Below, one piece after another: positions 7,865-22,894 of a stretch of DNA of 47,732 nt. Where the stretch lies: contig JAHYIY010000020.1 of NCBI GenBank assembly GCA_019429255.1, positions 1-47,732 on the forward strand. The letters are read 5' to 3'. How positions within the stretch are numbered: position 1 is the first letter of the stretch; each line of letters starts with the position of its first letter. The notes under the pieces are model-generated. The model did not search any database. It had not been told where the DNA came from and saw only the letters and a program-made list of their open reading frames with translations. The stretch comes from Desulfuromonadales bacterium. GTDB taxonomy: Bacteria > Desulfobacterota > Desulfuromonadia > Desulfuromonadales > Geopsychrobacteraceae. The translations under genes and the position numbers were made by a program.

Positions 7865-7894
7865 GGTGAAAATAATTTAATTGCAAAAATCCTA

Positions 7895-7966
7895 TAAAAG
7901 CAAACCCGGAGCAATTCAGGGACGCAAAACCACGGGTCTCACGGGGACAGCCGGGCTGACGAAGAA
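7895..7966 (+). promoter_or_regulatory. GEMM-I (cyclic dinucleotide) riboswitch aptamer
   Basis: The conserved GEMM-I blocks appear in order: GCAAACC (7900-7906), a short hairpin capped by the GNRA tetraloop GCAA (7911-7914), GGGACGCAAAACC (7919-7931), ACGGGTCT, and AGCCGGGCTGACGAAG (7949-7964). The base before CAAACC is G, the position equivalent to G20 in the Vibrio Vc2 aptamer; this favours c-di-GMP over the 3',3'-cGAMP variants found in Geobacter, but I hold that choice loosely. An intrinsic terminator begins nine bases downstream. CGAAGA at 7960-7965 can pair with TCTTCG inside the terminator arm, suggesting a ligand-dependent switch between terminator and antiterminator. Confidence 0.9.
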
Positions 7967-19758: not shown

Positions 19759-20817
19759 TTAGAACAGGTGCCGCAGGCCGCTCGCGTAATCACCACTGAC
19801 AACGCCACCTTCGGTGATGATCGCCGTGACCAGTCGCGCCGGCGTTACATCAAACGCCGGATTGCGCACGGCAATCCCTTCCGGCGCCAGGGCTTTATCC
19901 CCGATGTGGGTCACTTCACGGGCATCGCGTTCTTCGATCGGAATCTGGCTGCCGTCTGTCAGGCGCAGATCAATGGTCGAGCGCGGCGCTGCCACGTAAA
20001 AGGGGATATTGTGTTCGCGCGCCAGCACCGCCACCGTGTAGGTGCCGATCTTGTTGGCGACATCGCCGTTGGCAGCAATCCGGTCGGCACCAACAATCAC
20101 GCAATCGATTTCCCCTTGCTGCATCAGATAGCCGGCCATATTGTCGCAGATCAGGGTCACCGGAATACCGTCACGCTGCAATTCCCAGGCAGTCAGGCGC
20201 GAGCCCTGGAGAAAGGGGCGGGTTTCGTCGGCAATCACCGAAAGTTTGTTTCCTGCCGCTACTGCCGCGCGGATCACTCCAAGGGCGGTACCGTAGCCGC
20301 CGGTGGCCAGGGCGCCGGCATTGCAGTGGGTCAGAACCCGGGCCTGATCAGGGATCAGTGGCGCACCGTGGCGGCCGATCTTGCGGTTGATCTGCTCGTC
20401 TTCCTGGGTAATAGCGAGGGCTTCATACTCAAGGCCGATTTTCAGCTCGAAGACGCTGCGATCAAGGTTAGCCTCGGCAAAGCGCTGCATCCGTTCCAGC
20501 GCCCAGGACAAGTTCACCGCAGTTGGCCGACTGGCGGCAAGATAAGTGCAACGCTGCTGGAATTCGACAAAAAACTCCCGGCTCGATTCGTTGTCGATAT
20601 CACGGGCGGCAAACCAGGCGCCGATGGCGGCGGCAATACCAATGGCCGGTGCACCGCGCACAACCATGCTGCGGATCGCCTCGGCGACGTCTTCATAGCT
20701 GTCGTAGTCAAGCCAGACTTCCTGCCCCGGCAACAGACGCTGATCAAGCATCTGGCACTTGCCGGCAACAAAGCGGATGGGACGGATGATACTGGTATCG
20801 ATGGGGCAACTGGCCAT
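19759..20817 (-). CDS. mtnA: S-methyl-5-thioribose-1-phosphate isomerase
   Basis: Converts 5-methylthioribose-1-phosphate to methylthioribulose-1-phosphate in methionine salvage. The 352-residue protein shows the eIF2B-like isomerase signatures [31 protein letters not shown] (catalytic Cys) and [19 protein letters not shown] (catalytic Asp). AAGGAAC lies upstream of the ATG. No other methionine-salvage gene is adjacent. It lies between the four-helix-bundle gene and glnE in the same direction. Confidence 0.95.
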
Positions 20818-20843: not shown

Positions 20844-21326
20844 CTACCGATTAAACGATTTTCCCGCTTTCGCACCCTTTCCATCGATCAGGGGTTGCTC
20901 TTTGTCCAAATCGAAATCGCTATCGGGATCGAAATCGTTCTTACCGGTGCCGTAGACCGCCTGATCCTCTCGAACCTGGTAGCCCCGACCACCCAGACGG
21001 CTGAGCATCGCCGCCACGCGATCAAGGTCAGCTTTACGGCTCTGACTCTCCGCCTCCCGCAAAGCTTTGCCAACAACCAGCACATCCTGAATGGCGGCGC
21101 ATTCCAGCGCTGAACCGCGCGCGATCTCAAAATAACGTCTGCGATCCGCTTCGGCTGTCTTGCCGTTGCCTTCGGCAATATTCAGCGGTATCGACTGGCT
21201 CGCACGCAACCACTGATCTCGGGCCGCCCGATGGACACCATTGAGTTTCCCGGCCTTCTCGTACACCCAGGCGACGTAGTCGATCGAAAGGCGGTAAACA
21301 TCAAGCTTCTCGTGGCCAAGTGTCAT
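20844..21326 (-). CDS. four-helix-bundle protein (S23/IVP family) with repeat-encoded tail
   Basis: A 160-residue protein; about residues 1-118 form the four-helix bundle first seen in proteins encoded in 23S rRNA intervening sequences. Markers are LDVYRLSIDYVAWVYE, SIPLNIAEGNGK and ARGSALECAAIQDVL. The function of these proteins is unknown; the fold is shared with Avd of diversity-generating retroelements, but no reverse transcriptase is present. Residues about 128-140 (NDFDPDSDFDLD) are encoded by a hexamer DNA repeat that recurs in inverted orientation just upstream of the gene. It sits between gatB and mtnA, where I would not expect it from related gene orders, and may be an insertion. 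The ribosome binding site is weak. Confidence 0.85.
   Translation of the reverse strand: MTLGHEKLDVYRLSIDYVAWVYEKAGKLNGVHRAARDQWLRASQSIPLNIAEGNGKTAEADRRRYFEIARGSALECAAIQDVLVVGKALREAESQSRKADLDRVAAMLSRLGGRGYQVREDQAVYGTGKNDFDPDSDFDLDKEQPLIDGKGAKAGKSFNR
20908..20938. repeat. hexamer repeat inside the four-helix-bundle gene
   Basis: About five units of the form NNATCG, coding the acidic tail of the four-helix-bundle protein. Bases 20916-20937 are the exact reverse complement of 21352-21373 upstream of the gene. Confidence 0.85.
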
Positions 21327-21332
21327 TTCTTT

Positions 21333-21398
21333 TCGATCCAGATAGCGATCCCGATTTCGATCCCGATAGCGATAGCGATCCCGATTTCGATTTCGATT
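21333..21398. repeat. hexamer tandem array upstream of the four-helix-bundle gene
   Basis: About 11 tandem units of the form (T/C/G)CGAT(T/C/A), ending seven bases before the ATG of the four-helix-bundle gene. Together with the inner array at 20908-20938 it forms a 22-base perfect inverted repeat about 415 bases apart, bracketing most of the gene. Period-6 units keep two codons per unit, so the array is readable as protein when it falls in a gene. Confidence 0.9.
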
Positions 21399-21451
21399 TT
21401 GGTTTTTACTGTCCCAACCCCTGATCGCACGACCATAGTTTTTGGTATGGG

Positions 21452-22894
21452 TCAGGTTTTTTGCTGCAAGTGCTCTTTCAACAATTGATTCACCAATCCC
21501 GGATTCGCCTTGCCCTTGCTTTCTTTCATCACCTGACCGACAAAAAAGCCCATCAGTTTTTCCTTGCCACCCCGGTATTCCGCCACTTCCGTTGGGTTAG
21601 CGGCAATCACCTCAGCAATAATGGCAGCAAGGGCAGCGCTATCACTGACCTGTTTGAGGCCCCTTTCAGCGATGACTTCGTCGGCGCTTTTGCCCGTCTG
21701 CCAGATGGCACTGAAGACGGTTTTGGCGATCTTGCCGGAGATGCTGTTATCCTCAATGCGTTTCAAGATTCCGGCGAGCAATTCGGGCGTCACGGGACAA
21801 TCATCAATAGCGACATTGTTCTCCCTGATGGCACCGAGCACCTCCCCCATCACCCAGTTGGAGCAGAGTTTCGGATTGTTATGCCGTACCACCAGCGCCT
21901 CGAAATATTCCGCCAATGGGCGCTCAGCCGACAGCACTGCGGCATCGTAAGCAGGCAATCCCAGCTGTTCTTCGTAACGCCGGCGTTTCTGATCCGGCAG
22001 CTCCGGCAAGGCGGCACGCACCTCGGCGATCCAGCCTTCCGAAACTTCCAGCGGCAGCAGATCGGGGTCAGGGAAATAGCGATAATCGTGGGCCTGTTCC
22101 TTACCGCGCATGGAACGGGTCACCCCGGCGTCAGGATCAAACAGGCGCGTTTCCTGCACCACCTTGCCCCCCTCTTCGATCAGCTCAATCTGCCGCTCGA
22201 CCTCATAATCGATAGCCTGCTTGATAAAACGGAAGGAATTGAGATTTTTCAGCTCAGCACGGGTGCCCAACTCAGCCTGGCCAACAGGGCGCACTGACAC
22301 GTTGGCATCACAGCGGAAAGAGCCTTCCTCCATGTTGCCGTCACACACCCCCAAGTAAACGACGATCTGATGGAGCTGTTTCAGATAGGCAATGGCCTCG
22401 GCAGCACTGCGCATGTCCGGCTCCGAAACCACTTCGAGCAGGGGCGTACAGGCGCGGTTGAGGTCAACCAGCGAACCGGCATTGGCAGCATGGAGCAGCT
22501 TGCCGGCGTCCTCTTCCATGTGGATGCGGGTAATGCCAATGCGCTTGGCGGCAAACTCCTCACTACTGATATCAAGCCAGCCCTGTTCGCAGATGGGCAG
22601 CTCAAACTGGGAAATCTGATAGCCCTTGGGCAAATCGGGATAGAAGTAGTTTTTTCGGGCAAAGATGGAATAAGGGGCAATCCGGCAGTTGGTGGCCAGA
22701 CCGGTTTTAATCGCGGCGTTGACCACCTCCCGGTTGAGCACCGGCAGCGCTCCCGGTAATCCCAGGCAGACCGGACAGGTCTGACTGTTGGGAGATTGGC
22801 CAAAGGCGGTGGAGCAGCCACAGAAAATCTTGGTGGCGGTGGTCAACTGGACGTGAACTTCCAGACCGATAACGGTTTCATAGCGAGTCTTCAT
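21452..22894 (-). CDS. gatB: Asp/Glu-tRNA amidotransferase subunit B
   Basis: The tRNA-binding and kinase subunit of GatCAB, which converts Glu-tRNA(Gln) and/or Asp-tRNA(Asn) to the amidated forms. The 480-residue protein has the family start [11 protein letters not shown], the zinc cysteine set around FCGCSTAFG and [26 protein letters not shown], and a C-terminal YqeY-like tail domain ending [11 protein letters not shown]. It lies 56 bases after gatA. The 125-base gap to the next gene is mostly the hexamer array. Confidence 0.97.

Follow-up and report, generated by a model that had tools for sequence, protein, structure and literature searches.

A candidate small mobile element that joins an S23-type four-helix-bundle gene to inverted CGAT hexamer arrays

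The window, a stretch of 47,732 nucleotides that constitutes contig C31 of the 2.74 Mb genome of a Desulfuromonadales bacterium (G000), carries between gatB and mtnA a gene for an S23/IVP-type four-helix-bundle protein enclosed by two inverted arrays of CGAT-block hexamers. Sequence comparison supports an architecture common to several phyla, horizontal spread and dispersal of the unit, its decay through internal deletions that leave the arms behind, and a double constraint on the translated array. We lean, though not far beyond even, towards a small mobile element composed of inverted CGAT arrays and an S23/Avd-like gene, the protein of which would bind the hairpin formed by the arrays. Of the other genomes labelled below, G001, G002 and G003 belong to the same genus as G000, G005 to another genus and G051 to another family.

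The gene, its arms and its fold

The locus comprises the following features, numbered on the window.

20844..21326, − strand: S23/IVP-type four-helix-bundle gene, 160 aa, with an (Asp-X)n acidic tail; identified by PF05635 and TIGR02436, an AlphaFold2 model and a fold match
21334..21397, + strand: left (upstream) hexamer arm, (ATCGNN)n in gene sense, 7 nt before the start codon
20910..20937, − strand: right (coding) hexamer arm, (CGATNN)n in gene sense, inside the 3′ end of the gene, spelling DFDPDSDFD
20905..20913, − strand: outer end of the right arm, TCCAAATCG on the + strand; in other copies identical letters begin the left arm
21411..21418, − strand: GTTGGGAC, candidate 5′ border of the element, suggested by GTTGGG enrichment, position checked; we take it to be an integron-cassette-like R′ core
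20894..20903, − strand: AAAGAGCAAC, candidate 3′ border, without attC here; similar ends occur in other copies of the genus, by eye
20885..20897, no strand: 13-bp inverted repeat, downstream copy, a perfect pair with the upstream copy
21415..21427, no strand: 13-bp inverted repeat, upstream copy
21452..22894, − strand: gatB, upstream neighbour, verified
19759..20817, − strand: mtnA, downstream neighbour, verified

The 22 bases at 20916-20937 are the exact reverse complement of 21352-21373, as the initial annotation had pointed out from the letters alone. The right array contains 5 units, and the left array 11; CGAT stands in 10 of the latter, and the other is broken by a change to AGAT. A scan for three CGATNN units with at most one mismatch gave 14 matches in the window, 12 of them within the two arrays, compared to a mean of 0.30 and a maximum of 2 in 100 dinucleotide shuffles. 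The arrays are thus far beyond chance. The period-6 arrays bracketing a four-helix-bundle gene, the acidic tail written by one of them, and the interruption of a gatB-mtnA-glnE run, all proposed in that annotation, proved sound. Beyond it, we found array matches on nine other contigs and the perfect 13-bp inverted repeat outside the arrays. The latter was rejected as the terminal repeat of the family, being only partly kept in the G003 orthologue (~9/12 positions, by eye), and as a dispersed motif, with 14 other near matches in the genome, most apparently coding as judged by eye; no target duplication is visible at the repeat in the window.

The protein belongs to PF05635 (E 1.1e-19, 71.1 bits against a cut-off of 33.8) and matches the TIGR02436 four helix bundle family (E 1.7e-17, 63.6 bits, cut-off 24). 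The AlphaFold2 model has four long helices, with pLDDT values of 85-98 in 10-residue blocks over residues 11-110 and below 50 for residues 126-157. Structural similarity search using Foldseek retrieved the S23 structures 2gsc and 2rld, with E down to 3.5e-05, and, with E no better than 0.06, Avd of diversity-generating retroelements, as part of the ribonucleoprotein (8ub7) and by itself (4dwl). The fold is similar to that of Avd, with a TM of 0.74-0.81 by target length and a sequence identity of ~9-13%; one report also notes that PF05635 resembles Avd (PMC10053308). A diversity-generating retroelement has a reverse transcriptase, whereas none lies beside the gene here, and the single match in the genome is on contig C14. 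This match (C14:69739-70407) lies ~1.6 kb from a decayed array copy (L012, C14:66000-70500). A link to reverse transcriptase was rejected, the enzyme being present in the genome and not tied to the arrays.

Spread, decay and carriers of the gene-array unit

In the own genome, the four-unit pattern has 35 exact matches on ten contigs, nine besides that of the window, compared to 1 in the control. A "−" array followed by a "+" array occurs in eight places, the window included; one paired place has an extra arm beside it, and two further places hold one arm only. The C58 and C60 copies are alike, stand at contig ends and may be one place. The similarity extends at least 30 nt past the array into the 3′ end of the gene on C24, C52, C29, C60 and C58, five of the nine contigs besides that of the window. 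By eye, these copies keep the gene 3′ end, differ in their internal deletions and sometimes keep the start-codon region, and we read them as decayed copies of a gene-array unit. The NN order TT-CC-AG-TT of the right arm reappears in several gene-less remnants, again by eye. The genome has three S23-type genes in total, and the other two lack an array of their own (L009, and a gene on C29 ~1.4 kb from the nearest array). Among corresponding copies in related genomes, the left arms vary in unit number (by eye), and in Pelovirga-type genomes "+" then "−" arrays 80-110 nt apart do occur, between neighbouring elements.

When genomes were scanned with an alignment built from close relatives, 77 loci emerged. 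To count arms, 49 of these and the window were taken and the near copies L131-L134 were dropped, which left 46 subfamily loci; both arms have at least three units in 35 of them. More distant four-helix loci carry no arrays (0/21; 20 belong to relatives and one to the own genome), which makes the arrays a mark of a single subfamily: the expectation that other four-helix-bundle genes would be flanked by arrays held for close family members and failed for distant ones. By record title and taxonomy, the loci come from Thermodesulfobacteriota, Myxococcota, Verrucomicrobiota, Kiritimatiellota, Lentisphaerota, Hydrogenedentota, Pseudomonadota, Fibrobacterota, Riflebacteria, Planctomycetota, Acidobacteriota, Anaerolineae and others. 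Many are from metagenome bins, which can hold foreign contigs. Nevertheless, binning error does not explain the spread as a whole, because isolates carry the element, namely Pelovirga terrestris, Thiorhodococcus mannitoliphagus DSM 18266, Cerasicoccus maritimus NBRC 105382 and Kiritimatiellota B12222, the last with a complete chromosome.

On a gene tree built from 35 proteins, the phyla group no better than they do after random relabelling: the labels need 17 changes, compared to 18.2 after shuffling, with values as low in 54/200 shuffles, in a tree where 14 of 32 inner branches are open and more than one label change is no proof of transfer. Altogether, the comparison supports horizontal spread of the element. 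Neither PADLOC nor PHROGs gave a matching family, and tblastn searches of 72,556 plasmid and 50,697 phage records found nothing similar; links to defence, phages and plasmids were rejected on these grounds.

Among the 60 genomes, 59 have a gatB match, and 30 loci were examined (the own genome and 29 relatives). In all 30, gatB and mtnA adjoin, but only G000 and G003 hold the gene between them (2/30), so the interval, which the initial annotation had suggested comparing, does not always contain it. Within one genus the site is thus intact in two genomes, decayed in one and empty in one: G001 has a gene-less pair of arms between gatB and mtnA, and in G002 the gap is ~24 bp. In G005, a member of another genus, a hexamer hairpin with other NN letters stands in the same interval (L118), by either shared ancestry or a hot spot. 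The gatB+mtnA tree has the topology (G001,(G000,(G003,G002))), with support of 1.0 for the outside position of G001 and 0.87 for G003+G002. This tree suggests that the insertion is likely older than the split of the genus, with decay in G001 and loss in G002. A never-occupied site in G002 was rejected as the less likely account, since the remnant-bearing G001 branches outside G000+G003+G002.

The gene is less diverged than its neighbours between G000 and G003, with a synonymous difference of 0.20 (bootstrap 0.11-0.30), compared to 0.48 (0.43-0.53) for gatB and 0.40 for mtnA; even for G051, from another family, the value is only 0.33. Between phyla, synonymous sites of the gene are at or near saturation (0.63-0.86), so a constraint at the DNA level explains the low divergence poorly, and later transfer or gene conversion between copies seems likelier.

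The unit also seems to ride in different carriers. GTTGGG stands within 25 nt 5′ of the left arm in 9/58 loci, compared to 1/442 control windows (61 of the 77 loci plus the window, with four dropped for a missing or too short left flank), and CCAAC[ACG]A stands within 45 nt 3′ of the right arm in 10/40 loci, compared to 5/312 in the control (40 of the 77 loci plus the window, with L156 dropped). These borders look integron-cassette-like. Whole attC-like folds appeared in a relaxed scan at 2/40 loci (L142 and L175) and 6/1200 control windows; a strict attC scan gave none that convinced, only a palindromic repeat in L145, and no attC was seen by eye in the 3′ flank of the window copy. Integron integrases above the family cut-off occur in 25/60 genomes, G051 included, and none was found in G000-G003 or G005. 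Four G051 copies (Desulfuromonadales MAG LH_M59; L082, L083, L084 and L086) have an apparent integron-integrase 3′ fragment closely downstream in the same direction, identified in two copies by tblastn and in the other two by eye. These four copies also have parts of a terminator-like 5′ flank in common, which would fit the copying of a composite unit. The idea of a small cassette, raised in the initial annotation, thus gains from the recurrence of gene and arrays as a unit across phyla, from the cassette-like borders of some copies, and from the intact, decayed and empty states of one site in a single genus.

In G075, the hairpins are the cores of 135-171 bp elements with ends GGCATCYTTCAT/ATGAARGATGCC and terminal inverted repeats, and 5/12 have exact 8-bp target duplications. 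This genome, a Desulfobacteraceae MAG, contains a miniature transposon family with GGCATCYTTCAT ends and a hexamer-hairpin core (within L218-L237), in addition to a second family with other ends (L228, L230 and L233), of which L228 holds a four-helix gene fragment by eye. Thiorhodococcus mannitoliphagus (G081) has a family of miniature elements of a few hundred bp around hexamer hairpins (L238-L252 and L257).

Constraints on the arms

Wherever the gene reads through the right arm, the frame is GAT-NNC (31/31), which yields the (Asp-X)n tail; an arbitrary reading frame is therefore wrong. Among 50 loci, 31 read through the right array, translation ends ahead of it in 14 (in some because of early breaks), and 5 lack a three-unit array. 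Three full G051 copies end before the array, which indicates that the tail is dispensable there. The dN/dS between G051 copies is 0.17-0.43, a far weaker selection than the 0.05 between G000 and G003. Codons were counted in 34 of the 77 loci plus the window, with a tail present in 33/35 (all but L152 and L156). The X codons end in C in 141/155 cases in the tail, compared to 510/1289 of the gene-body codons for F, P, S, T, A, N, C and G, and Asp is written GAT in 153/188 cases in the tail, compared to 120/210 in the body. This bias indicates that the protein retains Asp at alternate positions, and the nucleic acid the C that precedes each GAT; by this measure the coding arm is constrained at both levels.

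Gene-less hairpins accompany the gene in some genomes. The five-unit pattern was counted in 26 gene-bearing genomes (27 of the 77 loci) and has matches in 25 of them, the exception being G077, where the gene is present and the five-unit array absent. Overlapping matches range from 1 to 1298 per genome, with more than 50 in 9/26, compared to 0 to 6 for the reversed-pattern control, and low counts may be the gene's own arms; G080 has 10 matches and 6 in the control. Among the relatives, the four-unit pattern has matches in 14/60 genomes, and more than five only in G000, G001, G003, G005, G038 and G051, all of which have the gene or remnants, the remnant matches being based partly on the array-coded tail.

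We read compact hairpins with a loop of at most 60 nt: 17 in G075, 15 in G081 and 2 in G071. The ATCG arm comes first in 34/34, an order that is partly chosen, because the stretches were picked among the matches listed, many for having both arms visible. In G071, 2/4 stretches were used. The loop is 6 nt in 14/15 hairpins of G081, and 8, 13, 14 or 20 nt in G075. In G071 (Kiritimatiellota B12222, complete), 9/13 places hold single-arm arrays by exact pattern, among the matches listed (50 of 63), and the stretch C1:548510-626441 holds 8/13 of the array places listed, mostly single arms on one strand.

The NN letters of the compact hairpins match in register in 15/56 and 14/56 cases, below the partner-swapped means of 20.5 and 23.0. 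When folded as RNA, CGAT has a paired fraction of 0.86 and 0.91, compared to 0.59 and 0.56 for NN. The conserved structure is thus a ladder of 4-bp blocks with a 6-nt period rather than a perfect duplex. The NN composition nevertheless matches within an element (69 matches, compared to 41.0 for swapped partners, 0/2000), and covariation of the arms position by position was not found, as order-shuffled arms gave 68.3 and 219/500 reached the observed 69. In Pelovirga-type genomes and G081, one arm tends to hold its NN order and the other varies in length and single-unit runs (by eye). The RNA of 20880-21430 in the window also folds with its arms paired (z -5.6).

These properties bear on the alternative that survives best, in which diverse small mobile elements end in palindromes prone to slippage, these being the arms, and the gene rides along without any interaction. 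The strong variation of left arms in length between corresponding copies, their runs of a single hexamer, the presence of arrays in miniature-element families with different ends (G075 and G081, by eye), the agreement of arms in NN composition and not in order, and the existence of single-arm arrays all favour it. However, mere passengers would hardly account for a layout kept with one protein subfamily across phyla and absent from other four-helix genes, for CGAT blocks that stay while NN drifts, or for the invariant Asp-X frame. We consider this alternative unlikely, though a serious one.

A proposed ribonucleoprotein element and its relatives

The element that we favour would consist of inverted CGAT-block arrays with a six-base period and a four-helix gene, the acidic tail of which is written by the downstream array. 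It would move between bacteria and from site to site, apparently carried by integron cassettes in some lineages and by miniature transposons in others, leaving gene-less hairpins behind. The likely ligand of the four-helix oligomer is the hairpin of CGAT blocks, most probably in RNA form, because full copies tend to lie sense to their neighbours. Protein and hairpin together would then make up a ribonucleoprotein that helps the element to persist or spread, with the array-written tail tuning the binding, possibly by competing with the hairpin for the basic surface of the protein. A putative role of the arrays as recognition sites, which the initial annotation had considered, is plausible. The failure of the NN letters to complement each other counts against the model to the extent that a full duplex is not what is kept. 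A bolder version, which we regard as tentative and rather doubtful, would make these elements a new class of ribonucleoprotein mobile elements, in which the oligomer binds CGAT hairpins, the array encodes a nucleic-acid-mimicking tail, hairpins are amplified in trans as non-autonomous copies, and integrons and miniature transposons carry the complete unit from one phylum to another.

The orientation was judged from the longest ORFs, rather than by a gene caller, at 44 loci, three of which lack a second neighbour. Relative to both neighbours, 21 full copies are sense-sense and 1 is antisense-antisense (n=41), which points to transcription, whereas the decayed copies show a weak bias, with 6 sense-sense and 3 antisense-antisense (n=21).

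By protein and layout, the nearest known system is the 23S rRNA intervening sequence, the proteins of which share family and fold with the one here (PF05635, TIGR02436, 2gsc and 2rld). According to one report, complementary ends border these sequences, enclosing the gene as here, and are cut by RNase III, and the S23/IVP four-helix proteins have no known function (PMC4990558). Compared to them, the unit described here differs in location and arm structure: it lies outside rRNA, has hexamer-array arms, an arm-written (Asp-X)n tail and dispersed gene-less hairpins. In the window, the gene sits between gatB and mtnA, and the Rfam scan gave no rRNA match, its sole match being a c-di-GMP-I riboswitch aptamer at 7889-7963 (+) with 56.4 bits.

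The kinship suggests a second alternative, an intervening-sequence-like RNA element in operons, whose arms would pair in the transcript so that RNase III cuts the stem and releases a gene-bearing RNA. The shared protein family, the RNase III-cut complementary ends of the rRNA counterparts, the paired fold of the window RNA and the excess of sense orientation are in line with this. Nevertheless, it appears quite improbable, given the position outside rRNA and a compact-hairpin stem broken by NN mismatches, as such a stem is expected to be a poor RNase III substrate.

Other systems share single traits with the unit. REP elements with RAYT transposases consist of a gene flanked by inverted short hairpins, with the hairpin also dispersed without the gene. 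The arrangement here is alike in both respects, but the protein is a four-helix bundle (PF05635) instead of a Y1 transposase, and the hairpin is made of CGAT hexamers. Y1 transposases are present in all 7 genomes searched and not tied to the arrays, so a link to them was rejected. Integron gene cassettes resemble the copies of some relatives, which have a GTTGGG-type 5′ border and an attC-like 3′ half site, whereas the window copy has no attC; to our knowledge, inverted hexamer arms are not a cassette feature. The G075 hairpins are like MITEs in being element cores with terminal inverted repeats and 8-bp duplications, but elsewhere the unit lacks such ends and includes a conserved gene.

A third alternative is that the host has domesticated the gene, the protein serving the cell, for example as an RNA chaperone, and the array acting as an autoregulatory hairpin for its own mRNA. 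The strong purifying selection between G000 and G003 and the left arm just before the start codon would fit such a role; the patchy presence, the decayed copies in the same genus, the phylum-blind tree and the gene-less hairpins elsewhere make it very unlikely. Least probable of all is a recombination cassette, in which a dedicated recombinase would act on the arms to excise or invert the gene: inverted repeats do flank the gene and several relatives have integron-cassette-like borders, but no inverted orthologue turned up in the 30 loci read at the gatB-mtnA site, and the two arms of a compact hairpin differ in NN. On these two grounds the inversion cassette suggested in the initial annotation was rejected. 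In addition, no integron integrase above the cut-off was found in G000-G003, and according to the tree the insertion predates the split of the genus and was followed by decay in G001 and, probably, loss in G002.

In the open-access literature searched, we found no description of these arrays with an S23-type gene, and nothing that joins S23-type four-helix proteins and integrons. The protein would represent an S23-family member in a small mobile element of a build that we did not find described.

An S23 subfamily is here tied to a defined nucleic-acid structure, with the same layout in several phyla and arrays scattered in many of the carrier genomes. The hairpin offers a concrete candidate ligand for S23/IVP four-helix proteins and a link to the Avd fold, and its coding arm provides a case of one array that appears to be under both protein-level and nucleotide-level constraint.
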